Shown here one piece after another: positions 11,475 through 63,998 of a stretch of 64,000 nucleotides of DNA; position 1 is the stretch's first letter; each line of letters starts with the position of its first letter. Under the pieces are notes generated by a model, which saw nothing but the letters and a program-made list of their open reading frames with translations, was not told the DNA's origin and made no database searches. Source of the stretch: Haliclystus octoradiatus (taxonomy: Eukaryota > Cnidaria > Staurozoa > Stauromedusae > Haliclystidae); assembly GCA_916610825.1 (NCBI GenBank), contig OU744452.1, forward strand, positions 18,067,103 to 18,131,102, read 5' to 3'. The position numbers and the translations under genes were made by a program.

Positions 11475-11763
11475 TAGAAATAGCGTGCAAGAATTTACAC
11501 TCCGGTTTATGTTCTATTGTAAAAGCACAATAATCACGATCAATAGGCAGACCTTTGGAATTTTTGTCTGCGGTATTGTTTAATACTATTATGTTTTTAT
11601 GTTATTGCAAGGAAAAACAAACTGTCTTGCTATTTTATGCATATTTCTTACAACATACAAATTGATTGTTAAATCCTAATGTAAAATTGATATTGAATTT
11701 TCTGATTATAATGAACAATAACTATTATCAATTAATCTAATAACTGAGTTCATAAAGTTTGAA

Positions 11764-12747
11764 TCAATATCCTAAAATATTTGCCATTGGAAAATCACCT
11801 CTTGCAGTGAAACGTTCTGGTTTGATTTCAAGACGTCCTTCGTGTGTTGCGATAACAACATGACCAAAACTTGAATACATTTTATCAAAACTTGACAATG
11901 TTACAACAATACCTTTTTCGCATGCTTTGGCAATTTCATCTGTCATTGGTTCTGCCATCCAAGCATTTTCAGGATCAACACTTTCATCTTTTCCACTAAA
12001 CTGTGCAGTGACAGTATGTCCTGCCTCTAACATGACATGGGTATCACCAAAGTACTCCAACCTTGGAAGATCATTATCAGCTTTTACCATCCCACCGTAT
12101 ATATTTGTAAATAAACCAACAAGACCTGCTTCAACTAATTCAGCTGCAAGCATTCTCAACCTCGTATCTTCATGATAACCAATCGTTTCAGCTAATGCAT
12201 AAATTGTTCTTCTTCCGGCTGCTGCTTCGGGACACCAAACATGTCGCATAGCACCTTGAAGTGAACCAAAATCTTCCAATTTTGTACCCAATGCTTCGAA
12301 ATCATGAAGATAAAAATTGTAATGAAAATCATCTTCAGCTACATAGGCGTTGACTTGTTTCTCCAAATCTGTCAGCTCGTTTTCTGGTTTGTCTAATTTC
12401 AAAACATTACTTACAAAATCTGCAAACCCGCATGAAAATCCGCACATGTATGGTACGAAACTCATTCTTACACGTGGTGCGTATTTGTTGTCTGATAATA
12501 TTGTAAAAAATGGATTGGTTTTGATCATTACATCCTTCATTTTATTCATATATGCCATAGCATCATTAAAATTTGCAATTTTACCATCGGGTTTAACTTC
12601 ATGTAATGATGAGGTTGGTTTTGTGAATGTATAGCCATTAGCGTTCGTATTTTGTTGACTTGCTGCACTCTGTACACATCGTGCTAATCTTGCTAATTGA
12701 ATTGAAGTTGATCTTCCAACAAGTTTCGATGAAAATGATGATATCAT
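11764..12747 (-). CDS. Putative mitochondrial heme-oxygenase-fold protein, copy 1 (intronless)
   Basis: 327 residues, one uninterrupted exon. The N-terminal 30-45 residues are rich in Ser, Arg and Ala with no acidic residues, like a mitochondrial presequence. The rest looks all-helical, with His/acidic clusters suited to a metal or heme site: FVPYMCGFSCGFADFV (97-112), AEDDFHYNFYLHDFEALG (E138, D140, H142, H148, D149), the helix around E203-E206, and EYFGDTHVMLEAGH (H237, E241, H244). This resembles bacterial heme-oxygenase-like or non-heme diiron proteins; the match is from memory of the pattern, not a search. It differs from copy 2 (24867-25889) at four residues (I16, V281, V282, T314). The 5' end is altered: about 45 bp including the upstream ATG present in copy 2 are missing, so translation must start 13 codons later. 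A TATA box lies at 12884-12891. Confidence 0.75.
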   Translation of the reverse strand: MISSFSSKLVGRSTSIQLARLARCVQSAASQQNTNANGYTFTKPTSSLHEVKPDGKIANFNDAMAYMNKMKDVMIKTNPFFTILSDNKYAPRVRMSFVPYMCGFSCGFADFVSNVLKLDKPENELTDLEKQVNAYVAEDDFHYNFYLHDFEALGTKLEDFGSLQGAMRHVWCPEAAAGRRTIYALAETIGYHEDTRLRMLAAELVEAGLVGLFTNIYGGMVKADNDLPRLEYFGDTHVMLEAGHTVTAQFSGKDESVDPENAWMAEPMTDEIAKACEKGIVVTLSSFDKMYSSFGHVVIATHEGRLEIKPERFTARGDFPMANILGY

Positions 12748-12883
12748 ATTTGTACGTGAAGAACGAATTGTAGAATATTTTCAAAATCTTATAAAACAAA
12801 GCAACTTGCCTATCATATAAAAGAATGGTCTATCTTCGATGGTGTTCACGTCTAGAGAGAACGTTCTCGATTTTCCACCCCCC

Positions 12884-12891
12884 TATTTATA
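12884..12891 (-). promoter_or_regulatory. TATA box of heme-oxygenase-like gene 1 (P1)
   Basis: The minus strand reads TATAAATA about 140 bp upstream of the start codon, in a flank shared with the other three promoter copies. Position and perfect match support a core promoter; not tested. Confidence 0.55.
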
Positions 12892-13116
12892 CTTGATGAC
12901 TGTATTATACTCATGGTCAATAGGCTCCCTGTAGAAGATAGATTAGTGTGAAAGTTCTGTAGCATTTTATTTGTTTCAGCACAAATGAAAAGGTCATACG
13001 ACACAATGCTACATTATTTATGAAATTAAGATAATTAAAATGTATAGTACAGTCATTTATAAACCTTAACGTCACACACATTGTAAGTACAGAAGCATTG
13101 TTCATGAACTTTGGTC

Positions 13117-13392
13117 TCAAATTAATTGATGATTGTATTTCCGTTTCTTTTCATTCTCTTGGCTTTTGAATGAAGTAGGAAGACTTTGCTTAAGATGGCT
13201 CGGAGCGAACGGGTTGAAAACCCTTACGTCAACAAATGCTCTTTGCCCCCTTTGCCAAAATCCCCTTGCGCACACATCTAGCCTTGCTTCATCACCGCAG
13301 ATTGCACTGGCTGGTATTGGCTCACCTGTCAATGGTAATAAATGTGGCTCAATAGAAACATCATTGCACACTTTGGAAAGAAGATGCCCCAT
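13117..13392 (-). pseudogene. Retroelement fragment, restriction-endonuclease-like region
   Basis: The frame contains GDEARLDVCARGFW followed by FVDVRVFNPFAPSHLKQSLP and EKKRKYN. This pattern is common in reverse-transcriptase-associated proteins of invertebrates and resembles a PD-(D/E)XK core. There is no reverse transcriptase next to it, so it is a detached fragment. It lies directly upstream of a + strand LINE. Confidence 0.55.
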
Positions 13393-13534
13393 TACTTAAA
13401 AAATAGCACATGTTTGATGTATATGAGGTCTCGTCGCGTTATTATCTGCGTCACAGAACGCAATTCATTCACGAATTCTCTTCCTCATTAATATACTGGA
13501 AACAGATACCGCTGATATTGCTAGAACGAAATTA

Positions 13535-14320
13535 ATGAAGGCGAAGAAAATGGAATTAGTTGGAGCGTGTATCTCTTTATATGAAATGAATGTCCAGGGA
13601 AAAGGTAGTACAATAACTGAAAATGATATAGGAACCATTTTAACAACAGATGGTAATTCTCGTGAGCAAGCGCTTTTTCCCGCCAGCCATTCGAAACACA
13701 CAAACAACGTACCGAAATCAACATCTCATTTATTTCGAGACACTTCACTCTCAGTCACGAACGGCGTGCAGCCTAATATTTTACAACGTATCGAAGCCAC
13801 AGAAGCCGCCACTCAAATTATTGCACAAAAACTTGACAGACTAATTGATTTGACAGTTGAAAGTCAAATTAAAGACGCAAATAGTGAAAATTTCGTTGTA
13901 AATTCACAACAATTCTCAAGAAGTTATGCAGATGTGCTACAATTCTCAAGAAGTTATGCAGATGTGCTACAAATCCAGAAACAACAGAAATTGCATGAAA
14001 AAGCAATAAAAAACATATCTGAACAAGAAAAAAGGAAACTAAATGTCATAATCCGTGGTCTGGAACCTTGTGACAGATTCGACAAAAAAGAACAGTACAT
14101 TGAGGATATTGCCATGAATGCTATCGGCATTAATAGTAACGTAGAATCGTGCAAACGATTAGGTAAGACAGGAAACAGGACTCAGCCACTACTGGTAACA
14201 TTAAAAAGTTTTTCAGATAAAATCAAGCTTTCGAAACATTCAAAATATTTGAAAAATACTTGTATGTATATAATGTGTATGTCTCTCCAGACTACACTGT
14301 TGACGAACAAAAAGTCATGA
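13535..14320 (+). pseudogene. LINE ORF1-like protein (copy A)
   Basis: About 260 residues. The middle (PNILQRIEATEAATQIIAQK and following) looks coiled-coil, followed by a basic, nucleic-acid-binding-like region (EKRKLNVIIRGLEPCDRF, SCKRLGKTGN). A perfect 30-bp tandem duplication at about 13910-13969 repeats QFSRSYADVL. The frame drifts near the end (NTCMYIMCMS), and the expected continuation is found in another frame up to about 14430, so it carries a frameshift. ORF1 proteins package LINE RNA into particles. Confidence 0.75.
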
Positions 14321-14458
14321 CAAACCTAAGGGCATAATGTAAAATAAGAAATGAAAACTTGAATGAGCTGGGGGATCGCTGGGTGATCAGAGATTTCCAT
14401 ATCGTGCAAATAAAATCCTTAACATACAACAATAATCAAGATTGACTGATGTCTACTA

Positions 14459-15290
14459 GTGCTATTACTAGTGCTAAAACTATTATCTATTAATGTACAA
14501 TGCCTCACAAGTGAGCGATTAACAGAACTACACACCTACATAATTGAAAATAAAATAGACATAGCAATCTTACAGGAAACATGGCTTCAACCAGAATCCA
14601 TGGATTATGTCATACCTGGATACGATATATTTAGAAATGATAGAGATGGTAGACAAGGTGGTACAGCCATTTATTACATAAACAATTTAAACATAACTAT
14701 GGATGTATCCTTGACAAAAAAATCACGTGGAGTGCAACATGAACAATTGACAGTCAAAGTAAAAACATCGACCAACAGGGTATTCTACTTAGTTAATTTT
14801 TATAATCCCCGGCAGGACAATTATGAAGATGCTATAAATCAGCTACGAACAACTGTAGAAATATTATCAGAGAGAAACATCGACTTTATTCTTGCTGGTG
14901 ATTTAAATGTTAATTACTTTAAAAATTCTCCATCAAAAACTGCAATTTCAGATCTTTTGTCGCAATTCAATCTCCACTCACATAACAATGATGCAACAAG
15001 AGTTACTGAACTAACTGAAACATGTATAGATTACTTTATATCATCTAAAGCATTAAATGAGCCTATCGGTCTATGTAAACCATCATCAAGTGTGTAAATC
15101 TGATCACCTTGGATTGGAAACTACCATAGTTTGCACTACAGAGAAGCCTGAAAAGTCATTGAAAACTTTGAGATCCTATAAATACTTTAATAAAACTGCC
15201 TTCTGTGAGGATCTTCTAAATGCAGACAGGACAGAATTTAAAAAAGCGATTGATGAAAAAGATATAGAACAAGCAGCAACACTTCTATAA
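14459..15290 (+). pseudogene. LINE ORF2 endonuclease domain (copy A), frameshifted
   Basis: APE-type endonuclease motifs in order: LSINVQCLTSERL (Asn box), ILQETWLQPE (catalytic Glu), LAGDLNVN, and KSDHLGLETT (SDH box). The last box is in a second frame from about 15057, showing a frameshift near 15090. A segment of about 190 bp (from about 15170 and again from about 15356) is tandemly duplicated, bringing extra stops. This enzyme nicks target DNA to prime reverse transcription. Confidence 0.8.
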
Positions 15291-15958
15291 ACTACCTTAA
15301 CCAAAACACTAAACAAGCATATTGCACCAGAAAAACTATCGTTCTTCATCCTAACTATGCTAAATACTTTGATAAAACTGCCTTCTGTGAGGATCTTCTA
15401 AATGCAGACATGACAGAATTTAAAAATTCGATTGATGAAAAAGATATAGAACAAGCAGCAACACTTCTACAAATTACCTTAACCAAAACACTAAACAAGC
15501 ATATTGCACCAGAAAAACTATCGTTCCTCATCCTAACTATGCACCTTGGGTTACAAAAGAATTGAGAACTGAGTTAAAAAAAAAGAAATAAAATGAGATA
15601 TGTAGCAATATAAACAAAACGTCATCAAGACTGGGAAAAATATCATGTAAATAGAAATAAGGTAAATTACAAATTAAGAAAAGCCAAAATAGATTACAAT
15701 AAATTTAAATTTTCAGAATGTGGTGATAATGCAAGCGAGGTATGGAACCGCATAAAAAGAATAACCAAAAAACACAAATATAAGTGTACCGCACAGACAA
15801 AGGAAGAGCTAAACAACATCAATAAATTCTTCTGCAATGTAGGGGAGATCATCAAAAGTACTACCCACACATCACCGAATTATTCAATCATTGAACAATC
15901 AAACAAATTATTTAATTTTACTAATGTTACTGAGATCGACACAATAAAATCTATATCA

Positions 15959-16642
15959 ATGCTCCCCAACTGGAAAGCACCTGGCAACGATGGTTTTAAT
16001 AGGTATGTGATTAAAGCTGCACTTCCTGCTATAGCAAAACCACTAACAGAACTTATCAATCTCTCTATATCACTATCGGTATTTCCTTCGCTTTTCAAAT
16101 TTACATTTGTATCTCCTATACCAAAAACACCAGCAGCAAGAACACCAGATCAACACCGTCCATTGGCATTATTATCTCTATTATCAAGGGCCGTCGAAAG
16201 AGTGGTATACTTGCAACTTTACCCATTTATTTCACCCTTGCTTAATATATGTCAACATGGTTTCCAACTGGGACGCTCAACAGTTACAGCATTGTTAAAC
16301 ATTACTGAACAAATTTTTAAATCGATGGATCGCCATGATCTTTCTTTGCTAATTCTCATGGACCTCTCAAAGGCGTTTGATAGCCTTCAGCATGACATTT
16401 TGTTATCCAAACTACAATTACTTGGACTGTCTCAGCAAGTATTGTCTTGGATTAAATCCTATTTAAATGATAGTACTCAAGTGATAAGAGTTGTAAACGA
16501 TTACTCAGATGAAATTGAATGGACGTGCGGAGTACCACAGGGATCTATCCTCGGGCCACTGTTATTCTTAGTGTATGTAAATGACCTATCAAATGTGTTA
16601 AAAAATGGTGTACTTGGTCAGTTTGCGGACGACACTCAATGA
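15959..16642 (+). pseudogene. LINE reverse transcriptase domain (copy A)
   Basis: RT motifs are WKAPGNDGFNRYVIK, SPIPKTPAARTPDQHRPLAL, MDLSKAFDSLQHD (motif A with its catalytic Asp), [21 protein letters not shown] and FADDTQ (motif C). A stop follows FADDTQ directly through a small deletion, so the thumb and C-terminus are out of frame (continuing at about 16650-17118). Confidence 0.85.
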
Positions 16643-17210
16643 TGCTACAAGCCAAAATGCACTGGTGCAACCACAATCATAGAAAAAAAGATAAGCGACG
16701 ACCTGACAGCATTAACATCATGGTTTCAATCAAACTCTTCAATACTTAACTCAAAAAAGACGAAGATTGTGGCAATCGGACATAGAAATGTTAAGGATAC
16801 GCAGCTACCGACAATATTACTAAATGGCGAGAAATTAGAATATGTGAACAAAGCCAGAAATCTTGGCGTTGTGTTTGACGAAATATGAGTTTTAAGAACC
16901 ATGTACAACAAATCATAAAAACTGCAGCATACAGATTACAAGCACTAGCCAAGCAACGGAAATTTATTCCTCAAGAAATGTTTATTAAAATTGTAGAATC
17001 GAGAATCTTAGAACCAAGCCTCTATGCCATAGAAGTATGGTCTTCTTGCAACAAAACAGAAGTAAGAAAGATACAAATTAAAATACAGAATTGGGCTGCA
17101 AAATTAGTGGTTGGCTGAAAGAAATTTGAAACAATGGACAATTTACTTGACGAAATTGGCTGGCTTGACATTTCAAATCTAGCTGAATTGCGCACTGTGT
17201 GCACAGCTCT

Positions 17211-20949
<3,739 letters not shown>

Positions 20950-21736
20950 AAGTTCAGAAAAGGTGGCCGGTTGAAGTCTGATGACAAATTTATTTACAGA
21001 AACGAGGAGATAGAAATAGTTAAAAGTTACACTTACCTTGGCATTGTTCTACAAACTTCATTGGTATTCACTCAACATATCACAGACAAAAAATATAAAT
21101 TGTTAGCAACCATTGGCCTCATTAAATATTTACAGCTTGTATCCGTTTCGACAGCTATTAAAATATTTGACATGAAAATTAAACCTTCTATCACATATGG
21201 CCTAAATTTAATTTCACCATATTTATCATTATCAAACGTATTAGAGCTAGACAAGATAAAAGCAAACTTTTTGAAGCGTGTTCTTGGTATTTCGCCACGT
21301 TCATCAAATACTCTGTGCTTTATGATGGCTGGCACATCAACATTCTTTGATGAAGTCAAAACTAACTTCCCCTTCCAACAAAAAGTCATTCAAGATCATG
21401 CTGCACATATACTAGAAAAGGCAAACAAATTAGAACAGTCTGGCTTTCTAATGGCGCCTGCATTTTTATCAGAAGGGTGGAAATCATGTCAGCAACCAAA
21501 TAGAAACTTTATTACACGTCTTTCTGTTCATGGTTTCCATCACCTCATCTGTATCAATGAAAAATTTCACAATCCATCAACACAATGTATCTGTAAACAA
21601 TGTGGCATGGAAGCAAATGATAGATATCACATCATCAAATGTAAAATGATCACATCCTACATGCAATTTGTAAAATTGAAAGATTCTTGAAAAAATTAAT
21701 AAAAAACAATAATAATAAATGAATAAAAAAAAAAAA

Positions 21737-21767
<31 letters not shown>

Positions 21768-21932
21768 AAATAAAATAATGATTAATAATAATAATAATAC
21801 TAATTGATCATTGATCAACACATATCAAATATTATACTAAATTTGCTATATTAACCAATTATATTTTAACTTTTATACTGTACTTATCTTAAATTTTGAC
21901 TACCCTGCATTAGGGTGAAATAAATACGTTTA
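20950..21932 (+). mobile_element. 5'-truncated LINE of a second lineage, CTAT tail
   Basis: Starts with [20 protein letters not shown] immediately after the CTAT tract. The frame is open to 21690 (YTYLGIVLQTSLVFTQHI thumb motif; CICKQCG...HIIKC zinc-knuckle-like C-terminus, the metal-binding finger of some LINE ORF2 proteins). Its 3' UTR has AT-rich simple repeats (AAAT, AAT) and ends GTGAAATAAATACGTTTACA then CTAT. It is related to the decayed LINE at 29490-31880 (KFRRGGRLNSTD) and not to the copies at 17 kb. Confidence 0.85.
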
Positions 21933-22104
<172 letters not shown>

Positions 22105-22800
22105 ACAATCCCGAATTCCCGAACAAATTACTTTTACAACTTGTCTATGGAATGTAGAAGGACTGAATGGACTTCTCAGAATTGCCCTGAAACTGACCCT
22201 TTTCTTGATTCTGATCTAATTATTTTAAACGAAACCTTCCTCAAAGATATTCCAACCAATTTTCCAAATTATAATATGCTTTTAATATAGATGCAAGAGA
22301 CCCCACTGGTAATGGTACTTGTTCCCGTGGCGGTTCTTTAATTTTGAGCTAAGGTTCATTGAATTACAACCACCTACAGTAACATTCTTTCGTTTATTTT
22401 CCACCCACACTCAAATCTCCACTATATTTTATGAAATTTCAAGTGCTCTAACACATGTAAATTCAAATTTACCTTCAATTAATTTCGGGAAATTTAACTG
22501 CTGCATTGATTCTGAAGCACGTGGAAAATCATTAATCAATCATCTGTCAGTTATTGGTTTCTTTATATTAAACAGTAACAATGACTTCACTTATATTTCT
22601 TCTTCTGGAAACAGTACAATAGATCTTGTTTTTACGAATTGTACCTCACGAAATGTAATTGATCACCATATTGAACATTCACTATTGCGTAAACATCAAA
22701 GGATTTTTTCTAAATGGACATTTCCAAAGTCAACTCTGAAGGATGTTCATTATTATATCTATCTGTGCCTTTTCTATCTGTGTTGGGATACATACTAATT
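22105..22800 (+). pseudogene. LINE endonuclease-domain fragment
   Basis: The pieces [14 protein letters not shown] (catalytic Glu box), CSRGGSLIL, INFGKFNCCID and GNSTIDLVFTN are APE-endonuclease-like, in shifting frames with stops. No RT follows. It ends near 22800 in AT-rich sequence. Confidence 0.7.
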
Positions 22801-23078
22801 ATTCAAATATCACTGCCATATTTTTATAAATAGAAGGGATGTCAACTCAGTGTTCTTGATGCTATTTTTAAATTTGCATCCTAATATTTATCGATTAGGT
22901 GTCATCTTCTTTATACTATTTTTAGCTCAATTATCCCACGAGAGCATTGTTCTTTCTTTTATACCCACATTCCAACCTTTTCTGATGCTATTTAACAGAC
23001 CACAGCCACCTATCAGGCGTGAAAAAAGTGTTTTGGGAGCACGTTTTTCTGCTACTATCGTGCCTTTATCCTGCAAGA

Positions 23079-23425
23079 TTATTAGCTCAGTTGGCAGAGC
23101 AGCCGAACTATACAGAAAACTTTAAATATATATATTGTTTTGAAAATATAACTACCATGTAAAAGAATGATCAATCTATGATCGTGGTGTACAATATTAG
23201 AAATAGCGTGCAAGATTCCACACCCTTATTTATGTTCTATTATAATAAAAGCATAATAAACACAATCAATAGGCAGACCTTTGGAATTTTTGTCACCAGT
23301 ATTGTTTTATACTATTGTGTTTTTATGTTATTGCAAGGAGAAAACGGGTGGTTTGAATGATTGCCAACGATGAGTATAAAGTAATTGGCCGGGGCTTAAT
23401 TAAGAAAATATAAATTATAAACTGT
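23079..23425 (-). promoter_or_regulatory. Orphan promoter-region copy P2 plus short SINE head
   Basis: 23110-23425 matches the 5' flanks of the heme-oxygenase-like genes and the P0 copy at 10717/11475-11700. It shows the uninterrupted site where the Harbinger-type element inserted in P0. The core TATA position reads CATAAATA on the minus strand. A tRNA-like A-box piece (ATTAGCTCAGTTGGCAGAG) lies at 23079-23100. No gene copy remains to its left. Confidence 0.6.
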
Positions 23426-23760
23426 CTTGCTATTTCATGACTTTCATGCACTAGTCACCAAGTTACACTCAATGAGTGTAATTTGAGCAAAATAATGTTG
23501 TATTTATACCCTTACAATTAAATATCCTACATGTCATTTTGTGTACTGTGCCTTTTCATTTCAATTATTTTCAATTATTTGAATATGTTTTAAATGTCCT
23601 TGCTCTTAAAGGGGTCTGGGAGCTATAATCGTGTGCCTTCCCAAAGACTTTTGAACGTTAAGCGTTTAATCTACTTGTTCTTGTATTAGGAATTTCAGTG
23701 TTCCGTCTGTATAATTTGTTACTCGCTCTCTATAGTTCTTGGTAATCAGGGCGTAACTTA

Positions 23761-23825
23761 GCCTGCGCTCAGACCTTACTTCCTCGTTAGTAAGAAAGGT
23801 TTTCAAGTAAGGTCTGCGCGCAGGC
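23761..23825. mobile_element. 65-bp foldback element, TA flanked
   Basis: Arms GCCTGCGCTCAGACCTTACT and, inverted, GCCTGCGCGCAGACCTTACT, with a 20-25-base loop. TA is on both sides (23759-23760, 23826-23827). It sits in the left end of the MITE that follows. Confidence 0.7.
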
Positions 23826-23826
23826 T

Positions 23827-24160
23827 AGGGGTAACTCTCATATGAAGGGAATGTGGAGACGTGCCAATTTTGGGAGTCCATTTTCTAGCTGAAAAAGTAG
23901 TTTATAGAAAGTTTCAGATTCTGCATATTTTTTGGGGTCCTTTTTTTAAATTGCTAAAATTAATTTAAAATAGATTTTTGAAAAAATAAATTTGGAATCT
24001 GTCTGAAAAACTTTGAAGGACATTGAAAGAAAAATAAAAAAGTTTTTAGAACTTCTGGGGTAGCTTTTACAAGTTTTCAGAACTCTTTGGATACTTCACT
24101 TTCTCGAAGTGACACCTCCCCCCACCCCCCGTCGATGTAGAGCCAGAGATACAATTAGGG
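23827..24160. mobile_element. GGGGGTAACTTCC-family MITE (copy B), diverged
   Basis: The left part AGGGGTAACTCTCATATGAA and the right part GACACCTCCCCCCACCCCCC match the ends of the other family members. The foldback element is inserted at its left edge. It lies in a roughly 1.3-kb insertion (23426-24746) that separates P2 from gene 2 relative to the first duplicated unit. Confidence 0.45.
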
Positions 24161-24866
24161 CCTTATATTTCAAATTTATGCTAGCTATATTGTAGGATTA
24201 ATTTGTAATCTTGTGAATTACCATTGATAATTAAATCACAATTTTGAATACTGTAATTCAACACAAACGGTTTGTTTATATTTTATTTCGTTTCACTGCT
24301 GAGACTGAGGAAGTAATAAAATGCCAGACTTGTTTAGATTTTCAAGTTTCAACTCGTTCAATTCTTAATATTCGTGATGCAGGCTGTGTTTTAATTAACT
24401 AATATTATGTTGTTAACTGGAAACACATCTTCATTGCTGCAGGCTGTAGGCCTTCTTTAGTTATCGGAAAAAATTTCACACATCTATTTCTAAATTGATG
24501 ATATTTCAATTTGCACCGAAGAACGAAACGGTTTTGTTAACATTTATTTTTATATTATTGCATTTTCACTGCCGCTTTTGTTACACACACCCAGCTATCA
24601 TTATAATGTAAAAGTGCCGTTTTACAGATATAACAAAAGGGTGTTCTGCTCCAATGTTTCTAGACAATAAAACGAATCCAATAACCGATTGGATATAAAA
24701 CGGCTTCGCGAACACAAATGGAATAGCGTCAATTTAGCAGTAGATATTTCTTACAACATACAAATTGATTGTAAAATCCTAATTTAAAATTGATATTGAA
24801 TTTTCTGATTATAATGAACAATAACTATTATCAAATAATCTAATAACTGAGTTCATAAAGTTTGAA

Positions 24867-25889
24867 TCAATATCCTAAAATATTTGCCATTGGAAAATCA
24901 CCTCTTGCAATGAAACGTTCTGGTTTGATTTCAAGACGTCCTTCGTGTGTTGCGATAACAACATGACCAAAACTTGAATACATTTTATCAAAACTTGACA
25001 ATGTTAAAGCAATACCTTTTTCGCATGCTTTGGCAATTTCATCTGTCATTGGTTCTGCCATCCAAGCATTTTCAGGATCAACACTTTCATCTTTTCCACT
25101 AAACTGTGCAGTGACAGTATGTCCTGCCTCTAACATGACATGGGTATCACCAAAGTACTCCAACCTTGGAAGATCATTATCAGCTTTTACCATCCCACCG
25201 TATATATTTGTAAATAAACCAACAAGACCTGCTTCAACTAATTCAGCTGCAAGCATTCTCAACCTCGTATCTTCATGATAACCAATCGTTTCAGCTAATG
25301 CATAAATTGTTCTTCTTCCGGCTGCTGCTTCGGGACACCAAACATGTCGCATAGCACCTTGAAGTGAACCAAAATCTTCCAATTTTGTACCCAATGCTTC
25401 GAAATCATGAAGATAAAAATTGTAATGAAAATCATCTTCAGCTACATAGGCGTTGACTTGTTTCTCCAAATCTGTCAGCTCGTTTTCTGGTTTGTCTAAT
25501 TTTAAAACATTACTTACAAAATCTGCAAACCCGCATGAAAATCCGCACATGTATGGTACAAAACTCATTCTTACACGTGGTGCGTATTTGTTGTCTGATA
25601 ATATTGTAAAAAACGGATTGGTTTTGATCATTACATCCTTCATTTTATTCATATATGCCATAGCATCATTAAAATTTGCAATTTTACCATCAGGTTTAAC
25701 TTCATGTAATGATGAGGTTGGTTTTGTGAATGTATAGCCATTAGCGTTCGTATTTTGTTGACTTGCTGCACTCTGTACACATCGTGCTAATCTTGCTAAT
25801 TGAGTTGAAGTTGATCTTCCAACTAGTTTTGATGAAAATGATGATATCATATTTCTACGTGAAGAACGAATTGTAGCAATCATAGACAT
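24867..25889 (-). CDS. Putative mitochondrial heme-oxygenase-fold protein, copy 2 (intronless)
   Basis: 340 residues in one exon, nearly identical at DNA and protein level to copy 1 (11764-12747), including about 110 bp of 3' flank. It has the full N-terminus MSMIATIRSSRRNMISSFSS, a strongly basic, Ser-rich, acid-free leader expected to target mitochondria. Mature-protein motifs are as in copy 1 (EDDFH...HD; THVMLEAGH). It differs at T29, A294, L295 and I327 (copy-2 numbering). A heme-oxygenase-like helical fold with a metal or heme site is inferred; the substrate is unknown. The absence of introns is striking next to intron-rich neighbours and fits retroposition or gene transfer followed by tandem duplication. 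The TATA-like box is at 26015-26022. Confidence 0.8.
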   Translation of the reverse strand: MSMIATIRSSRRNMISSFSSKLVGRSTSTQLARLARCVQSAASQQNTNANGYTFTKPTSSLHEVKPDGKIANFNDAMAYMNKMKDVMIKTNPFFTILSDNKYAPRVRMSFVPYMCGFSCGFADFVSNVLKLDKPENELTDLEKQVNAYVAEDDFHYNFYLHDFEALGTKLEDFGSLQGAMRHVWCPEAAAGRRTIYALAETIGYHEDTRLRMLAAELVEAGLVGLFTNIYGGMVKADNDLPRLEYFGDTHVMLEAGHTVTAQFSGKDESVDPENAWMAEPMTDEIAKACEKGIALTLSSFDKMYSSFGHVVIATHEGRLEIKPERFIARGDFPMANILGY

Positions 25890-26014
25890 GATTTCAATGT
25901 ATATTTTTTGAAGGTATTTTCAAAAAGCAATTTAACAACCATGAAAAAGAAGGCCCAGGAATGATCAATCTTTGATGATGTCCGCTAGGAATAGCTTGCC
26001 AGAGATCACACCCT

Positions 26015-26022
26015 AATTTATA
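26015..26022 (-). promoter_or_regulatory. TATA box of heme-oxygenase-like gene 2 (P3), at a MITE junction
   Basis: The minus strand reads TATAAATT about 130 bp upstream of the start. It is part of a 9-bp target duplication (AATTTATAC) caused by the adjacent MITE, so a second copy lies at 26254-26262. Confidence 0.5.
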
Positions 26023-43817: not shown

Positions 43818-46800
43818 ATGGCAGTGAATTTATCTACTCATGGTAAAGATATAGGAGATGCTTGGAAAGAAGTTTCAAAGCCTGATGGAGAGAATGACTG
43901 GTACGTGATATGATTGTGGGCTTTTAATAGGCTCTGAAGTTGTGTAATTTTTTGCCAACCATAATAATTTATAATGTGCCTTCACTCACTACGCCTAGTA
44001 GTCTACGGACGAGTTTAGAATGGATATTCGTCAATATTAAATAACAACAACTATTGCTTAAAATAAAAATATAGATCAATCTGTATATATAAGGCGCATT
44101 TGAAGTGTTTAAAAACATCTTTTTTTACGTTAACCTGAAAACCAACCTAGGTTTGTTGGTCAAATTGTCATCATTGATATTTGTCTGATAGGGTGTGGAA
44201 ATCGTTTACGTGCGATCATCCCTGCTATTGTTCAAGAGGATTCAATTGAAGATACAACCCACTAATTAGAATTCTCACATGTAGCAACTCAAAGGAAATT
44301 TTTGCTTGGCGTTTTCATTTTTTTTTTTTCATTTTTGATAAAATGTCTTATTTTAGCGGATGCAAAGATTATATGACGGAAGTGCCTCTACATGATTCCC
44401 ATCAACTTCAATTTCCTTTCCATTGTCGCAAGTGTAAACATTTAAAATATCATTGTGCTGCTCATTACTCAATACGTTGCTTTCTGCTACTTTACCAGTC
44501 TATTTCTTTAATAAACTGTAGAGAACTTCATTTCATTTTTTGAGTCAAATGTTTATAGTCAGTAAAAGTTTCTTCGAAAAACATTTCAAGATAAAGGATA
44601 GCGACAAAAAATAAACAGACTTAGGTTTAAACAACGTTTCGCAATAGCTTAATTGCATCTTCAGGTTAAAAGGAATAACATATAAAATTACAAAGTATTT
44701 ATAGTAAATATTTACGTGATTATAAAATTGGGTAGAAAACAATACAACAAAGATAATATATTATTTACTTAGGTAGAGTTATACAAATAGCCTAGACCGG
44801 ACGGAATCCTTCTGAGTGTTGAGGGTCGGACTTAGCTCTTTGATTACTAGCATTTCATGAATTAAACAATCAAACTTATTGGTGCACTTCCTCAGTACAG
44901 AAAAAAGATGTCCTGAATTTTTGACATTTTTATTGTGAGTTTGTAAGTGTAAACCGACTGCCGACCCACAATGTTCGTCAATACGTTGATGTAGATGCCG
45001 GCGAGTAAAGCCGACATAACTCGCATCGCACGAGTCACACTGGAATAGGTAAACAACGCATTGACGAGACAGTAAAGCCGGCCTCGGTTCACGCACACGA
45101 ACATCGTCAATTATTTTTCTAGATTTAAAAACTGGTCGAAAGCTCTGTCCGACTTCTACACTCAGAGTTTTCAATTGTCGCCGTAGTGAATTGGCGGAAA
45201 CCTGGTCTTTGTAAGGCAAAACAATGTTAATTTCATCTCATTTGTTGTGGGTTATGTTGTCTAATTCTACATTATTAGGTAAATTAAACTTAGAAATACA
45301 AAAATTAATTAAGGAAATAGGATATTTAAGTTTTAAAAATATGTTTTTGATAGTAATACATTCAGAATTAAATAAATAATCATTAGATGATAAACGGCGT
45401 GCTCGATCAAGCATCGTTAATAGCAGCCCCCGTTTGTATTTCATGTCCACATGACTATTATAATGCAACAATAGCCCATTGTCAGTGGGTTTGCGGTAAA
45501 CCGAAGTTTCAATACTACAATTAGTTCTTTTTAGTAATGTACCGATTAATGGTAGGGGAGAGCGGGGTGAAATGGAACGGGGGTGAATCGGAATACACAA
45601 CTTCTAAAGACTCAAAAATTACAAAATTGCAGCAGAACGTTGTTCTTATATAGTTTAAACATTGTGTAAAGTTTCATTTCGATACATAAAGTAAATAAAA
45701 TATTATAAGCCTTTGAAAATTTGTACGCGCAATGCAAGTCATTCGCTTTTCACATCGCGTTTCATTTTATTTTCATTTCTTCACGGATCAGGTGTTATTG
45801 CATACCATTGTGTAGAGAATTTCCGTGTTATGACGTAGGCAGTTGTTATTTTCGTCTTTTCCAACAAACTTTCTAGTAAATAGTGTTTATGTTGCAAGAT
45901 TCACGATGGGGTTGAATGGAACACGGCGGGAAACATTTCAATCACAGTCTGGCTTCACACTGCTTTGCTTTGTTGTTGCTCCGCCTTTGATTTCACACCA
46001 AGAAGAAATCATTCAAATTAATCCATTAAATTGGTTCAATTGCCTCTTTTCATTAGTAAATAGCCTTGTATTATTTCTATGAACCATTGATCTTTTTGTT
46101 GTTTTATTTTCAACGTAAAATTAATGAGTTTGTATTGTCTTGTTTTGATTTATTATTTCCCTCGTGAATCAGTGTGAATTATAATGTAAACAAAACATTT
46201 GGATGAGCGGTTTCTTTGAATTTGACACCTTCGGAAGGAAAGCGACTTTTTCGAAGGACTGCATGAAATTAAATGCTGTTTTATACATATTGTATTGGTT
46301 AAATCTAATTAAAACCCATTTAAATGATTATCCTTACTCATATTCTCTCAATTATAACTGAAATTTGAAAAATTATACTGGTACGGGAAAATGTTATCGT
46401 GTTTTACGGAGACGCATTTTTTCGAATGGAAAATAATAATCTTATAAATTTATATTTGGAAGTAAGTTTCTTTATCTATCTAATTTATTATTGTTGATAT
46501 CAATTTTTAAAGGCTCAATAACTATGATACTCAATTTATTTGAACAAATTCGATGAAATAATGGTAAATTTGTGATCATTCCGTTTCACCCCACATTTTC
46601 GCAAAATCGCGGTTTTGAAAAAATGTCATTCTTCCTTTAAACATTGTTTCAACTTTGATTTGACAATATTCAGGTATTTTGCATTATAAACTTCAGACAA
46701 TTTCCTACAAATCGATACCAAAATTGTTAGTTTTGCGTAAGCCGTTTTGGAGCAATAATTTTTTTAAGAAAATTTGTTCCAATTCACCCCGCTCTCCCCT

Positions 46801-47636: not shown

Positions 47637-50600
47637 TAATAATATTAATAGTGGATTTGTTCCACACCAGTTCTTGGTATAGCGGACGCGGACAAGCGGA
47701 CTTCGGACTTCAGATGCATGCGGACGCTTTTATTTTGCTCTTGCAATAATTCCGTTGTATCTTCGTTTATAACATTATATATTAAATAAATATTAAATAA
47801 AATCAATTCACGAAGCAGATCGAAGTTATGAAGGTATTTTAAAAATGATTCACAATTGATTGGACATGAATAACAAGAAAAAAGTAATGGCAACACGATC
47901 GCAAGACTCACAGTCACAATTAAAAGTAAAAAAGATTACGACACCGCAAGAAATAACAAAACCTGACATGATGGAGATTATAAGAGAAATTTTATCATCT
48001 TCTGCCTTCAAGGATGCAGTGAAAGAATCTGTTAATGATGCCCTACATGAAATAAAATATCAAATGGATGAGATGGAAGAACACGTAAACTGTTTAATAC
48101 AGCGTATTGATCATCAAGAAGATGAAATAAGAAAACTAAAAATTGCTGTTGGATCTCAAGAAAAAGACAAAAGTCTCAGCTACCTTCGCATAGATGGCCT
48201 GCCTGAGAATGAAAATGAAACAGCAAACATTATTAACTTAGCTGAATCTACTTTGGGTATCTCCCTAAAGGAGCATGAATTCAGTTCCAGAAAATTAGTT
48301 ACGCCATCATGGAAATTACGCAATAACAAAAATATTATTCAAGCACCTCCACCCAGCAGCGATGACAGCAATGACCTTTGTCCCGAGAACAAAGAGAACA
48401 ATGAGAAAGAAAACACTAAAGTTAACACCATAAGGAGTCCGACTGTACTTGTGTATTTTCACAACATTTGGAAGAGACAAGAAATTTACAACAATAGAAG
48501 ATTGCTAAAACATTCAGGCATATATATCTCAGAACAACTCAACAAGGACACAGCCACCATATTCTACAAATGCAGACAACTAGTAAAGCAAAAGAAGCTA
48601 TTAGCCACCTGGACGAATGACCTGAAAGTTGTTGTTAAGAAACATGACAAAGAAAACACAATCATCTCCAACGAAGAAGAGTTTTCGATCATGGCGGAAT
48701 ACTTTTGGTCGATGGCCTTGGATCCTTCCTCGTCTCAGACTGAGCAGCAGACCCCTGAAGAAAGCCAAAAATATAAGTCTACTTCTTAGCTTTAAATTTG
48801 AGACTAGCTTTTTCTTTAATTCTTTTGCTTCTGACTTTCCTCTCAATATTTTCATTGCCATGCCTGTTTTTGTTGACACGTTTGTTTATTTTTATTTATG
48901 CTTGACTGATTTGATACTCGATAACAAATCTCATTTATTTAAAAATGACTGATCACAATAATTTAAATGAAGTTTATAGTAACTGTGATTTGGTGAAACG
49001 TCTGGGATACATAACTGCTGACAGAATTCCTACTACTGAAATGTCTTTTGCAACTCAAAATGCCAGAAGCTTGCTCAAAAATAACAACAATGTAATCGAA
49101 TTCCTTGATCTTTCCAATATAAAAGTTCTTGCGTTACAAGAAATTTGGCAAGGTGGAGTTATTTCTCTCCCAAACTACAACTACATTTCCAAGGAACGTT
49201 CTGTGTCTAGAGGAGGTGGTGTAGGTCTGGTTATTCATAATTCATTTTCGTTTACAACAAATCATAAATTGTCTGAAATAAATGAGGACATTGAAACTTT
49301 GGTCGCAGAAAGTGGCCAGTATGTATTTATATCGGTGTACATTCCTCCTAGATCTAACTTGACTAACTCAATATCAAAACTAACCACAATTCTAAATGTA
49401 TATAAACACAAAACAATCTTTTTAGGTGGAGACTTTAACGTTAACATGCTTATTGAATCTGAGAAATCTCAAGATCTTTTAAATTGTTTCATTTCTTCTA
49501 AATGTATCCCTGTCAACTCTCTTCCTACTAGAATTACTCAAAAATCGTGTACGCTCATTGACAACATTTTCACAAATTCCAAATCAAACATGACTACAGG
49601 TGTAATCACCACTGAAATTTCTGATCATTTATGTCCAGTTGTGCATTTTAAAGTAAAAGAAAAGCCTTCAATTGGAACCATCTCATACCACAATATGTCA
49701 GCCAAAAACCTAGAAACACTAAAATACCTTTTAGCTGCAAACAACTGGTATCTTCCGGAAGACCCTAAATCAGCTTTCGAAAAATTTCATTATAAATTCC
49801 AAGAATGTTTAGATATTTCATGTCCATTAATCAACAAAAAGTTAAACCGCAATAAACACAAAATAAATCCATGGATGACAACTGGACTGTTAATTTCTAG
49901 GAAAACAAAAAGGAATTTATACAACAAATGGATCAATACAAAAGACAATCATATCAAAGATAGATATGACCAATACTCTCGGACTTACTTTAACCTGATT
50001 AGGAAATGCAAAATTTTATACTGGGATCATTTTTATGTAACTTATAAACATGACATGAAATTATTATGGAAAGCAACAAATAACCTTCTAGGAAGAAACA
50101 AGCAAAAAAATCGCTATCCTGAGTTTTTCAATGTCAATAACTGTAAAATTTCAAATCCAATCACCATTGCTAATGCTTTCAATGATTATTTTATAAATGT
50201 TGGTCAAAATCTTGCACATCATTTCCAATCCAATGATGATTTCACTTTTTTTTTACCTCCAAATGATGACAGATCTTTTATTTTCAAACCAGTTTCTCAG
50301 ATTACTGTAGAAAAGGTAATTGGCAAACTACAAAACAAGGCAAGTTATGCTTTTGACTTTGTCTCAAGCTCATGTCTGAAATCTATATACCATGAAATTA
50401 TCTCTCCGTTAACCTACCTCATAAACCTCTCCTTAACAACAGGCTTCTTTTCTCAAAATTACAAACTTGCAAAAATCTTACCTCTTTTTAAAAAGGGAGA
50501 CCCTCATTTACTATCCAATTACAGGCCAATTTCAATCATTTCTACCTTTTCAAAAATTTTAGAACGTGTCGCTTACAACCAATTATATTATTATTTCCAA

Positions 50601-53600
50601 GAATGTTTCCTTACTAAATTCCAATTTGGTTTTCGAAAATTCTACGAAACAACCGATTGCTTTTTAAATTTTTTACATAACATTTTTTCAAACCCAAATG
50701 ATAAATATCATATTGCCATATTTATTTATCTCAAAAAGGCATTTGACACTGTTAATCACAACATTCTATTAGCTAAATTATCTCACTATGGAATTTCTAA
50801 CCACGCATTAGTTTGGTTTACTAATTATTTGTCAAACAGAAATCAAATTGTATCCTTAAATGATAATCTATCTTCGCCTGCAACTGTCACTTGTGGTGTC
50901 CCGCAAGGAAGCATAATGGGGCCTCTTCTCTTTTTAATTTTTATCAACGATTTACCATCCTCCACTAAATTCAATGTCAACCTTTTTGCTGATAACACAA
51001 CTTTGCAATGGTCTGATAACAACCCAATTATTCTCCAAGAGAAAGTAAATGCAGAACTGAATGTTATCTCTAAATGGTTCAATGGTAATCAACTCACATT
51101 ACATGAGGCTAAAACCAAATTTATTCTTTTCAACCAACCACACACTGACATTAAAATTCAAATAAACCATACCTTGATTGAAAGATGTGGTCACAATCAA
51201 AAAGAGAAACATGTAAAATTTTTAGGTCTGATGATGGGAGAAAAATTAAATTGGAAAATCCATGTGGATTATGTATGTAAAAAGATTCGATCCCTATGTT
51301 ACAACCTGATCAAACTAAAAAACTTTTTATCCAAAAAACATAAAGCCCAAATTTATTCCTCAATTGTTAAACCCCACATCGAATACGGCTTACCTATTTG
51401 GGGTCATTCCTCAAATTGCAGGAAACTTAATACATTACACAAAAAGTGTGTAAGGATAATAGTTAATTGTAAACCACTAACTCACACTGAGCCATTGCTC
51501 AAGGCTTTAAATATCTTGAAGTTCCATGATCTCTACATATTGAAATCATTAACCTTTCTTCACAAAACCTTGTCTGCAAAATCAGCTGAAACCACGAACA
51601 CAATTTTCAATTTCATTGATAACAAAACTCGCAGAGGCAATACTTTTTTCGTACCTTTTGCTAAGAGCACTTTCCTTCAGCACCTCCCTAGCCACAGACT
51701 TCCTGTACTACGGAACTTCCAAAAGTCAATCCTTAAGTTTGAACCAACAACAGCAAGCTTTGGGATTTTTATCCAAAAGTCTTTACATGATACATATACC
51801 ACGACTTGTACAATAACGGACTGCTACGTATGCCAACAACTCACTACTTAGCTTTCATTAATTACTTATATATTTTTATTTTTTCTATCAATCAGTCAAC
51901 ACATTTCGATGTTTCCTTTCATATAATTGAATACTGTATTACCTTCTTTATTTTTTATTATTTCTAATCCTATTCTTATTCTTACTTTTCTTTTCAATGC
52001 ATATCTAATTCATAGCCAGATAATGGAAATATAAATAATTTGTGTCTCCCAATAAACAAGCATTCATGCTTACGGGATGACCACAATCACTGTAAATTAG
52101 AAAACCTGTAAATTTCACTTTGTATTTATATACCTTGTTACATTGATTGAAATAAATATCTATCTATCTATCTATATAGTACCTAATGAAATTAATCAAA
52201 GCATATTATATAAAGAATGGGAGTCAAAAATAAAACATGCTAGATTTCCGCTACTTCACGTTTCACATTCAGAAGGTGATCATCAGGCGATTTATTTCAA
52301 CTGTCCTACAAAATTTAATCCCTATCCTATATTGAGCTACTAAATTTTACGGTTGATTGATTATTGGTGATGCTATTGTTTATTTCATTTGTGGGTCTGT
52401 TTTCATTGGTGTTGTCTTTGAAGAAAAAGGCTTTCCACCTCATTTGTTTAATTATGCTCTCCACTTTCTCAATCAGACATTAAGAATAGCTGCTCTTACT
52501 AGGTATAGGTATATTCTTTGTAGAATAAATTGAATATAGTTCGTTCCATCTTTATTCCAATACAGTGAGGTATAGTGCTCGACTTAAAAGGAGCTGGTAT
52601 AATAATAATATAAGAATATTAATAGTGGGATTGTTCCACACCAGTTCTTGGTATAGCGCTTAATGAATTTAACCAAAGCATAATTTATAGAATGAGAGTC
52701 AAAATAGTTGGTCACCAGAAGGTGATCATCAGGCGATTTATTTCAAGTAATTCTAGTATGTTTCATTTTAAAACTTTTATTATCAACATTCGTTAACAGG
52801 GCTTTGTTTGGCTATGAGGGAAAAACATTTGACTTGAAATTAATTGAAAAAGGAGGTAAGTTTGCTTGTTTTATATAACCCTTCCATCTTGATGTACTGT
52901 CTTTCTATCTATGTGATTGCGTAAGCAAGCAACCGGTATAATGTATGGTATAGGCTACAATGAAACCTGTTCATAACAGCCAGCTATGAGAGGTAGATAA
53001 ATTGAACATTATAGACAGGTGGCCTTTATATACAGGTTTAATTCAATAGAAAATACTATTTTAGACATTGCAAAAATGACCACTATAGACAGGTGGCTGC
53101 TTTATAGAGGTGGCCATTATAACAGGTTTGACTGTACTGTAATATTAATAATTGCTTGATTGTTGATCTAATCGCAGTGTTATCTTGCTCAATATCATTA
53201 AATGACAGAGCTGTAGATAAATACAGTTAATAGGCCTAATAAAATAGAGTACACTTAATATACATACTGTATAGAATATACATAAATAGAGTCAATGGCT
53301 ACACATTTTTCTTTTTACTCAGAGTATCACGCTTTATGCGATCTTCAGACAGAGTTGTATATTTAGTATAATAATATATAGTGTAATATATACATAATAA
53401 GTTATGTTTATCTAATAGCAGATAATATAATGCTATATGTCTTCATTTGACAAAGCGGTGAATAATAATAATAATATATGGTGAAAGAGTCAAAGAATAC
53501 ATATTCTTTACTGTTACTCAAGTTTCACGCATTTCACTGCGATCTTCAGACAGATTTTATGTTTTAGCGGACCCTCTATGAAAGGTAGATCAATTGGTAA

Positions 53601-61793: not shown

Positions 61794-63998
61794 ATGGCTA
61801 CCGCAAGTTCTGCCACGATGATAGCTTGCAGCAGAACAAATGATTGGCAAACTGACACAGCACTTGAAGAATACTTATGTGAGCTTGTATTGAAAAACTA
61901 TAGTAGATCAGAAGCTCTTGATTTTGTCGAAAAGAAGTTTCCTATGTATGCTTGGAGTCTTGGGAGTTTTGATCGGAGACGGCGATTTTTTGACATCAAG
62001 TACATTGACTACTCCATCGATGTAGACACTGTAATCAAAGCCTTTAAAGAGGAAAATAAAGGACCAGGTATGTTACTTGGCTACCGTGCAATGCACAAGA
62101 AGTTACGAGAGAAGTATGGCCTTGCTGTCCCTCGAAATTTGGTTTATGACGTTATGGCTAAAGAGGATAGTGACGGACTTGGACGTAGGAGAGTCGTTGG
62201 TGGAGCCAAGCGCAAGAGAGGAGGCGTCGGTACATTCATTTCACTGGTAAGAGTAATTTGGAATATCCTTTCCAGCCACCGATCATTTTTTATTTGAGCA
62301 GTGGATAGGTTAAATAATTAACTTGGCACAAGTTATCTGATACTATTTATTTGATTTCAATTTCAAATGTATTCTAGGGATCGAATCATACTTATTCAGC
62401 CGACGGTCACGATAAGCTGATGGGATTTCAAAAGGACACTTTTCCTCTGGCTGTTTACGGATTTCAGGACGTATTCAGTAATAAAATTCTTCTTCTAAAG
62501 CTATGGACGTCAAATTCAGACCCACAGATGATCGGGAGATGGTATCTGAATATGATTAGTGAATCTGGAGGTAAGTCTCTGCATGCGTATAAAGAAGCAT
62601 TAATACGATAATCTTATATCGAAGAGTACTGGAATTGATATCTGGACCAAATTCAAGCAACATTATTTACTGATTATCTACAGTATAGCCATAATAATCT
62701 GATAGGTGTGACATTTTTCACATTATTTTTTTTTCATTTGCTCTACCTTAATTATAGTTACTAGTCAAAGACTACGACTTGACAAGGGGTCTGAGACAGG
62801 AACAACGGCAACAATGCATGGATTCCTTCATGGTCGAAAAAATCCTGAGGTGAATATTGATCAAACTGTTTTCTATGGGCCATCCACCTCCAACAAGGTA
62901 TGTGAAACAGCATCAGTACACAGTATAAATTCTACTCATGATTTGCAATGTAATTTTGAAATATTATTTTACTTTCAGATAGAAAGATGGTGGAGAGAGC
63001 TTCATGAGAGATTGGAAACTTATTTCAAGAGTCAATTGTTGATGCTTTTGAATAACGGTCTTTATGACACAAATAGCACACTTGACAGGCAGTTGCTAGC
63101 TTTTGTATATATACCAGTTATCCAATCTGAAATGGATGACTTCCGCTCACTCTGGAACTCACACAGAGTGAGAAAGCAAAGGAAGTCTAAGGTCCCCAAA
63201 GGAATTCCTGATCATCTTTATGAGTTCCCTGAGTTGTATGGTGCTGAACAGTGTGGTAAGCTACCATATTTCGCAAATTAGCTAAAATTAATTGAACTAG
63301 AAAATTTTCAAAGGTACCACCAATTCAAATTTGATGAGTTCATGGACTCAGTTCCAGTTCCTAAACAAACCAACAAATAGAATAACACATGCAGGCAGGT
63401 CAAAAGGCATCTGTAGCCCTGTAGGCTATTATTTTGTAGCAACTTAATTCCTATTTTTGCAAATACGGTCAACCTTGAAACCTGTTACGGCAGCCACCTG
63501 TCTATAGTGGTCACTCTAGCAGTGTCTAAATTAATATTTTCTATTGAATCAAACCTATATATAAAGGCCACCTGCACCCACTTGCATACATAATGGTCAA
63601 TTTATCTACCTCTCGTAGATGGCTGTTATATCCCATGCAAAAAAGTTCATGAGTTCATGAACTTGAAATTGCCCAAAAGTTCATGAACTGTTCATGGACC
63701 CACAAATTTCATGAACCGATGGATTTTTTTCGCACGGGATACAGGTGTCAATGTATCCTGTGTTTTGATTTGAGGATCTCATCTATTATGTATATATGTT
63801 GCTATAGGACTTGAGGTGCTTGAAGATGATGTTGCTGAATTAGAGTCCCTTTCTGGTGTGGGAAGCTACAAAGATTTCCTGCCTGAAGCAGTTCGTCGTA
63901 AATGTGAGGGTTTAGTGGAGGATGTTGGTAATATCCCTGTTACTGAAGCTGCAAACATTTATATGCTGTTGAAAAGTTCATACATTCCTGATGAATAA
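61794..63998 (+). CDS. DDE-integrase-like (rve-related) protein, five exons, complete
   Basis: Exons 61794-62246, 62378-62570, 62758-62897, 62979-63255 and 63808-63998 (TAA); 417 residues, all junctions GT-AG and in phase. The N-terminal third (EEYLCELVLKNYSRSEALDF, FDRRRRFFDIKYID, GPGMLLGYRAMHKKLREKYG) looks like a helix-turn-helix head. The integrase core follows: YSADGHDKLMGFQ (D160), RLRLDKGSETGTT (D224), IERWWRELHERLETYF (E264), i.e. a D-D-39-E triad with the IERWW box found in a family of integrase-core proteins widespread in invertebrates and fish. The start at 61794 (aacATGG) has a strong context; an in-frame ATG at 61641 would add 51 residues. No terminal repeats were seen, so it may be a transposase in a large element or a domesticated gene. 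Intron 4 carries a MITE-in-MITE. Confidence 0.85.
63463..63753 (+). mobile_element. Degenerate family P MITE in transposase-like gene intron, with nested insert
   Basis: ACGGTCAACCTTGAAACCTG to CAGGTGTCAATG; the terminal segment GTTATATACAGG is split at 63642 by the palindrome element at 63643-63739. Confidence 0.7.
63643..63739. mobile_element. GTTCATGAAC element (copy 4) nested in a MITE
   Basis: 97 bp with inverted ends CCCATGCAAAAAAGTTC / CCCGTGCGAAAAAAATC and GTTCATGAAC cores inside. Removing it with one AT restores the family P end GTTATATACAGG exactly, proving it is a mobile insertion with a 2-bp (AT or TA) duplication. Confidence 0.75.

Follow-up and report, generated by a model that had tools for sequence, protein, structure and literature searches.

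AetD, the cyanobacterial nitrile synthase of the aetokthonotoxin pathway, converts 5,7-dibromo-tryptophan to a nitrile and also accepts 5-bromo-tryptophan and, less well, plain tryptophan (PMC10654658). A second characterised enzyme, SktA, is described as converting 5-bromo-tryptophan to 5-bromoskatole (PMC13108848). Both are heme-oxygenase-like diiron oxidases (HDOs), a superfamily that a 2026 review assigns to bacterial species; the terms "eukaryot-", "animal" and "metazoa" are absent from its text (PMC13108848). Here we describe two genes, w1 and w2, that encode AetD-family proteins in an animal, the staurozoan jellyfish Haliclystus octoradiatus. They lie in a stretch of 64,000 nucleotides (GenBank assembly GCA_916610825.1, contig OU744452.1, positions 18,067,103 to 18,131,102 of the forward strand) that was analysed as a whole and is called the window below. 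The literature searched, which leaves subscription journals mostly outside its coverage, yielded no animal HDO.

In AetD, Fe1 is bound by H79, H172 and E176 and Fe2 by D76, E140, E176 and H179, and alanine mutants of the ligands are inactive (PMC10654658). The substrate is held by Tyr167, which bonds its carboxylate, and by Phe44, which stacks on its indole (PMC11611611); Ser214 contacts its 7-bromo substituent. SktA, compared here through its description in a review, has the same predicted ligand set (PMC13108848). Other members of the superfamily, including UndA, BesC, SznF, CADD, PolF, HrmI and MboA, are described as sharing its heme-oxygenase-like diiron (or Fe/Mn) character and general chemistry.

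Our reading, held with moderate confidence, is that w1 and w2 belong to a six-locus animal family of AetD/SktA-type oxidases that would act on a tryptophan-like substrate, would be of bacterial ancestry and would have come to chromosome 7 by retroposition.

Sequence family and predicted diiron site

Both genes are intronless coding sequences on the minus strand, 13.1 kb apart. Alignments and open reading frames (ORFs) predict that w1 (11764..12747, 327 amino acids; ORF and ligand alignment) and w2 (24867..25889, 340 amino acids; ORF, phmmer and family alignments) encode AetD-family diiron oxidases. A sequence-only reading of the window had noticed a pair of nearly identical single-exon genes of these lengths, and so they are: 974 of 984 shared nucleotides are identical, and the 10 differences comprise six silent and four amino-acid-changing substitutions.

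Pfam gives no match to either window protein at E up to 10, NCBIfam none to the one scanned, and PADLOC likewise returns no family. A phmmer search of Protein Data Bank (PDB) sequences with w2 recovers AetD (E 3e-10, w2 residues 90-261), with the next chains at E 0.5 and above; at the E limit of 10 these were four chance-level sequences, the best being PbaA (E 0.5), and were set aside. When a 47-member family profile is run against 177,635 PDB sequences, the only chain recovered at E up to 1 is AetD, with an E value of 3e-75. A three-row profile built from the animal proteins alone matches AetD with an hhalign probability of 98 percent (E 1.6e-13). AetD (PDB 8JI2-8JI7, 8TWN, 8TWT, 8TWW, 8ZVG and 8ZVH) is the only credible PDB relative, and these comparisons show that the window proteins belong, by sequence, to the AetD family, apart from other HDOs. 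None of the seven other superfamily members named above appears in the family-profile search at E up to 1, and those with PDB chains stand far outside the sequence family. Heme oxygenase proper, TenA and UndA-like enzymes were considered and found no support, AetD being the sole credible chain by phmmer or profile. Homology to the solved AetD implies a seven-helix, heme-oxygenase-like bundle in the window proteins, and the sequence-only guess of a heme-oxygenase-like, non-heme diiron protein was right at the level of sequence, since AetD is a solved member of that fold and its six ligands are kept.

Family models capture little of this group. Three of the 47 alignment members match Haem_oxygenas_2 (best E 2.6e-5), the remaining Pfam and NCBIfam matches are weak and scattered, and no model in the copies scanned covers the AetD-like family. 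As a side observation, a cyclic di-GMP (c-di-GMP)-binding model is matched by one of the 47 (E 3.7e-10) and TIGR00052 by nine (best E 2.4e-4).

When the whole genome was searched at the protein level, eight matches came back, which resolve into six loci on three chromosomes. Four copies lie within about 130 kb on chromosome 7 (w1, w2, L009 and L010), with one further copy each on contigs C11 and C10 (chromosomes 8 and 9). These counts are lower bounds. A query taken from the Cyanobacteriota draw described below recovered these six loci and nothing further at E up to 0.1.

The AetD ligands D76, H79, E140, H172, E176 and H179 align with D152, H155, E219, H250, E254 and H257 of w2, and all six positions are kept in five of the six jellyfish copies, w1 and w2 included. 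The motifs EDDFH...HD and THVMLEAGH, singled out in the sequence-only reading, are both present, and EDDFH and THVMLEAGH carry metal-ligand positions: in w1 and w2, DDFH supplies the D-x-x-H of core helix 1 and HVMLEAGH the HX3EX2H motif that is also found in AetD. Among bacterial relatives the six ligands are exact in 78 of 82 rows, with Glu replacing Asp76 in the other four; in this count the L037/L088 pair is not entered twice, but L079 and L117, identical in the tree columns, both are. A 59-row ligand count includes the L037/L088 pair, which is one protein, and excludes ORF L054_b as a second frame over the same match.

Conservation extends to part of the predicted substrate pocket. In w2 the equivalents of Tyr167, Phe44 and Phe48 are Tyr245, Phe117 and Phe121, and the first two are present in all six animal copies. 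Position 48 is Phe in w1, w2 and L009, as in AetD, and Leu in L010; none of the copies has Glu at this position of auxiliary helix 2, an arrangement of the substrate-triggered type that lacks an extra Glu ligand. Position 214 is Phe, as in SktA, in the five Haliclystus rows aligned (w1 excluded) and in 74 of 82 bacterial rows. SktA has Thr139 and Thr142. In the animal proteins position 139 varies (Val, Phe, Thr or Ala) and position 142 is Gly; w2 resembles neither AetD nor SktA at these two positions. The animal protein is further set apart from AetD by a leader of about 65 residues at its N-terminus, by a longer C-terminus and by being encoded in an animal nuclear genome.

Six loci in the jellyfish and their bacterial relatives

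All four chromosome-7 copies are single open frames, and the C11 and C10 copies each contain two introns at the same two positions. The exon models of these two genes are predicted from genomic sequence. In the C11 gene, GT-AG introns of 476 and 1,246 bases separate three exons (9481004-9481655, 9482132-9482312 and 9483559-9483688); the C10 gene (G000:C10:14771638-14773673) has GT-AG introns of 819 and 392 bases and intact ligand positions. The first intron interrupts the Asp codon of an NDLP motif that is unbroken in the chromosome-7 copies. Intronlessness is thus restricted to the chromosome-7 copies and is no trait of the family.

Ahead of the core, w2 carries an N-terminal leader of about 65 residues (25695..25889, minus strand; mitochondrial-type by composition, with an approximate boundary). 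The sequence-only reading had pointed to a basic, Ser-rich leader, which holds for the 340-residue copy: its first 60 residues include no Asp or Glu, 8 Lys or Arg and 20 Ser or Thr. L009 has no acidic residue in its first 40 positions and two in 60, L010 has one in its first 40, and C11 has one in 40 and three in 60 alongside 12 basic residues. Hydrophobic moments range from 0.57 to 0.70 across w2 (0.57), L009, C11 and L010. These features fit a putative mitochondrial presequence. The w1 protein is shorter because the start-codon region of the other copies is deleted, as seen in a gapped alignment of the upstream sequence, and it lacks the first 13 leader residues. In C10, compared with C11, a one-base insertion in the leader part places the first in-frame start after the leader.

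Relatives of the animal core occur in bacteria. A tblastn search of 72,556 plasmid records returned six. A single peptide pattern (ED[DG][FHR]H[YW]...) scanned over genome contigs returned 81 stretches, 50 of them proven relatives with 23-31 percent identity in their best segments; such a scan misses relatives without the pattern, and those it recovers share part of the motif by construction. The core that the sequence-only reading described as bacterial-looking thus has relatives at 50 bacterial loci. We also searched draws of genomes from five phyla with a profile of the animal alignment (E up to 1e-6, no pattern), each draw being seeded with one known-positive genome. Relatives were present in 21 of 292 Cyanobacteriota, 5 of 282 Myxococcota, 1 of 398 Pseudomonadota, 1 of 294 Planctomycetota and 1 of 296 Actinomycetota, and cyanobacteria are the stronghold among the five phyla drawn. 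Two viral-contig scans showed no viral carriers. The uncharacterised AetD-like bacterial proteins (from cyanobacteria, Burkholderiales, Steroidobacter, Myxococcota and others) share the core and motifs of the animal proteins. Their genes have no introns, and the bacterial rows of an early family alignment lack a long leader, starting at most about 30 residues ahead of the core. Given this distribution in the collections searched, which included no eukaryote collection, we infer a bacterial origin for the animal family.

In both phylogenetic trees the animal proteins form one clade (support 100/100 and 100/99), whose stem is about two changes per site long. In the first tree this clade meets the long row L035, for which the tool issued a warning. 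In the second, which also omits L035 and the L010 copy, it joins L101, a very long row from the Myxococcota draw (99/82); this join was not used because of a long-branch warning. Rows left out of the trees were w1 (a near copy) and L088 (the same as L037) and, later, the re-found rows L097, L098, L104 and L105 and both L111 frames. The phylogeny proposed in the sequence-only reading thus places the animal proteins in one long-stemmed clade and does not identify the donor, a lineage that two trees and two approximately unbiased (AU) tests leave open.

Proposed activity and history

Judged by its family, the mature protein would bind two ferrous ions through three histidines and three carboxylates. 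An amino acid would dock on Fe1 by way of its carboxylate and amine, assisted by Tyr245 and Phe117, and would itself, as substrate, trigger O2 activation. Addition of O2 would yield a peroxodiiron(III) species, followed by oxidative cleavage of the amino-acid side chain. Tryptophan, or an aromatic amino acid similar to it, would be the likeliest substrate, and the product would most likely be of indole type, either a carbonitrile (as with AetD) or skatole and cyanide (as with SktA). The primary paper on SktA, to go by its title, reportedly concerns the conversion of tryptophan to skatole and cyanide. A tryptophan-like substrate without a 7-halogen is favoured because position 214 is Phe, as in SktA, rather than the Ser that touches the 7-bromine in AetD. 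The substrate that the sequence-only reading left blank can be narrowed by family to a probable tryptophan-like amino acid. At least the 340-residue copy would probably be directed to the mitochondrion by its basic leader. As to history, a bacterial gene may have become an animal gene with introns, a leader and a presence on several chromosomes, after which one retroposed copy, having lost both introns, would have multiplied in tandem on chromosome 7.

Several observations weigh against this account. Identity to AetD is just 27 percent over 165 columns. The AetD pocket residues M139, A142 and S214 are replaced in w2 (Val139, Gly142 and Phe214), and Phe48 is lost from the intron-bearing copies, with Ala in C11 and Val in C10. 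The start of the leader is missing from w1 and the whole leader from C10, which makes a mitochondrial role for the family in general less likely, and the mitochondrion would be a surprising place for a cyanide-releasing enzyme. The neighbours of the bacterial relatives are diverse and indicate no single pathway. Neither a grouping of the animals with a cyanobacterial clade nor one with a clade of Burkholderiales type could be rejected (AU p 0.319 and 0.324, for groups picked after viewing a tree, with a quick LG+G4 tree and a row set further reduced by L099-L103, AetD and L117). GC content was dropped as a sign of long residence, and is uninformative, because low-GC cyanobacterial loci (0.35-0.41) look like the animal copies (0.35-0.39; host window 0.33). 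Finally, related HDOs are described as catalysing quite different reactions (PMC13108848), so family alone cannot give substrate or product.

A possible, if doubtful, alternative is that the proteins are AetD-family diiron oxidases with an ordinary mitochondrial metabolic role whose substrate is an amine, a fatty acid or an amino acid other than tryptophan. HDO reactions are described as varying widely despite similar ligand sets (PMC13108848), and the animal pockets differ from that of AetD at positions 139, 142 and 214 and from one another at 48 and 139. The genes beside bacterial relatives, which include O-methyltransferases, transporters, TonB receptors, a glycosyltransferase and flavin monooxygenases, are also compatible with other substrates. 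However, the two nearest characterised members, AetD and SktA, are both described as using tryptophans, and the Tyr167 and Phe44 equivalents, which in AetD serve the amino-acid head and indole stacking, are kept in every animal copy.

A different history, which we consider unlikely, is the recent transfer of an intronless bacterial gene followed by tandem duplication and later intron gain in the chromosome 8 and 9 copies. It would account for the intronless state of the chromosome-7 copies and for the finding that all relatives outside this genome are bacterial, within the collections described above. Yet the animal proteins are only about 20-32 percent identical to the bacterial relatives compared and form a single long-stemmed clade, and leaders are already present in both lineages. 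Retroposition is favoured over intron gain because it takes one event as against two insertions at exact coding places. The sequence-only reading had taken intronlessness, together with a bacterial-looking core, to suggest transfer or retroposition. Because the C11 and C10 paralogues carry two introns each, it says little about recent bacterial transfer; for the chromosome-7 copies, precise loss of both introns through one retroposition and subsequent tandem multiplication would be the simplest account, though not a proven one. Inspection by eye revealed no poly-A tract or target-site repeats near w1 or w2.

We regard it as quite improbable that the cluster consists of decaying or non-catalytic copies, that is, a birth-and-death array in which some members are pseudoenzymes. 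This view finds its best case in the L010 copy (also L003; L010:5818-6813, G000:C8:17963817-17964812), a full open frame on chromosome 7 in which four of the six metal ligands are replaced (H79Q, H172D, E176L and H179R) and which is likely a pseudoenzyme or decaying copy; the five pairs involving it have Nei-Gojobori ratios of nonsynonymous to synonymous divergence (dN/dS) of 0.27-0.45. The 5' ends of w1 and C10 are also damaged. On the other hand, all four chromosome-7 copies have full open frames, five copies have all ligands, and dN/dS is well below 1 among the ten pairs of copies with intact sites (0.15-0.30; the ratios are rough, dS exceeding 1 in eight of the ten). Contamination or a symbiont gene is next to impossible: the outside relatives are bacterial and GC fails to separate the copies from low-GC cyanobacteria, but the six loci are spread over three Hi-C chromosomes, two of the six contain GT-AG introns, and the window genes have TATA-like upstream elements and share the window with reverse-transcriptase elements.

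The reading of w1 and w2 as members of a family of tryptophan-cleaving oxidases would touch on medusozoan development. Indoles are described as inducing polyp-to-medusa metamorphosis in a cubozoan and in every discomedusan scyphozoan tested, with no such effect in one coronate and two hydrozoans; endogenous indole production by polyps was unknown as of 2017 and data from Staurozoa were wanted, and L-tryptophan alone caused no strobilation in one Aurelia line (PMC5744923). Because characterised family members turn tryptophans into simple indoles, the jellyfish family is a candidate indole source. It is a long shot that the animal uses a captured bacterial-type diiron oxidase to make its own small indole from tryptophan, either indole-3-carbonitrile or skatole (the latter with cyanide), for developmental signalling or for defence. 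The words indole, nitrile and tryptophan are absent, by term counts, from a review of medusozoan chemical defences (PMC12194522). With its full ligand set, leader and introns, an animal family of this kind would extend HDO chemistry to Metazoa and offer an expressible test case. Were tryptophan the substrate, the family would be a direct candidate for the endogenous indole of medusozoan metamorphosis and, for an animal, an uncommon means of making a nitrile, skatole or cyanide.

Surroundings of the genes

The bacterial setting looks like small-molecule metabolism. We scanned 20 ORFs hand-picked from the longest-ORF listing of 34 loci, including a fusion at L040. O-methyltransferases stand beside L039, L047 and L048, major facilitator superfamily transporters near L043 and L068, TonB receptors beside L077 and L080, a response regulator beside L059 and a glycosyltransferase beside L074; other families occur singly, and four of the 20 have no family. 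L040 (Acaryochloris; L040:6016-8685) encodes a fusion protein of 890 amino acids that joins an AetD-like oxidase to a flavin monooxygenase, and L038 has a flavin monooxygenase next door. A partner of the AetF halogenase type was considered and rejected, as in PDB searches the flavin monooxygenase part of L040 and a Calothrix neighbour matched ordinary flavin monooxygenases or Baeyer-Villiger enzymes and no chain named AetF was among the matches listed. Cyanobacteria also contain tandem pairs of AetD-like genes (L039, L041, L044, L046 and L069), whose members fall in separate tree clades.

In the window, w1 and w2 are parts of a duplicated block that consists of the coding sequence and about 120 nucleotides of 3' flank (11641..12780, matching about 24744-25883; the right edge is approximate). 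At a fixed offset, identity is 94-100% per 50 nucleotides from 11651 to 12750, 64% at 12751-12800 (the 5' edge) and 20-42% beyond the block. Upstream, the w1 deletion breaks the fixed offset, and a gapped alignment retains partial likeness there. These patterns fit a recent duplication or gene conversion of the coding block. Consensus matching identifies putative TATA-like elements on the minus strand about 130 nucleotides upstream of the w2 ATG (TATAAATTA, 26014..26022) and about 140 nucleotides upstream of the w1 ATG (TATAAATA, 12884..12891).

The window sits on chromosome 7 (21.35 Mb; C8 in the genome search) of a Hi-C assembly searched as 33 contigs and 261,861,806 bases. The published assembly is given as 261,898,343 bp (PMC9975415), about 37 kb above the searched copy. 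An 18,316-base contig with code-4 frames is read as mitochondrial, and the published mitochondrial genome of H. octoradiatus is given as 18.3 kb (PMC9975415).

A domain scan of 10 of the 90 listed window ORFs at Pfam cut-offs found reverse transcriptase (two ORFs), endonuclease (alongside one of these), integrase core, GIY-YIG and ankyrin matches. One reverse-transcriptase frame spans 15614-16639. A 978-residue open frame at 48915-51848 combines endonuclease and reverse-transcriptase domains and is read as a putative element of the type without long terminal repeats. The GIY-YIG match lies at 44782-45237 and the integrase-core (rva_4) match at 62712-63278. Between w1 and w2 a long 8-base tandem satellite occupies 18626-19117 and onward. 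A 103-nucleotide repeat, 89 percent identical, occurs 3' of both genes (11515-11617 and 23241-23343), and the spacing of this pair differs from that between w1 and w2.

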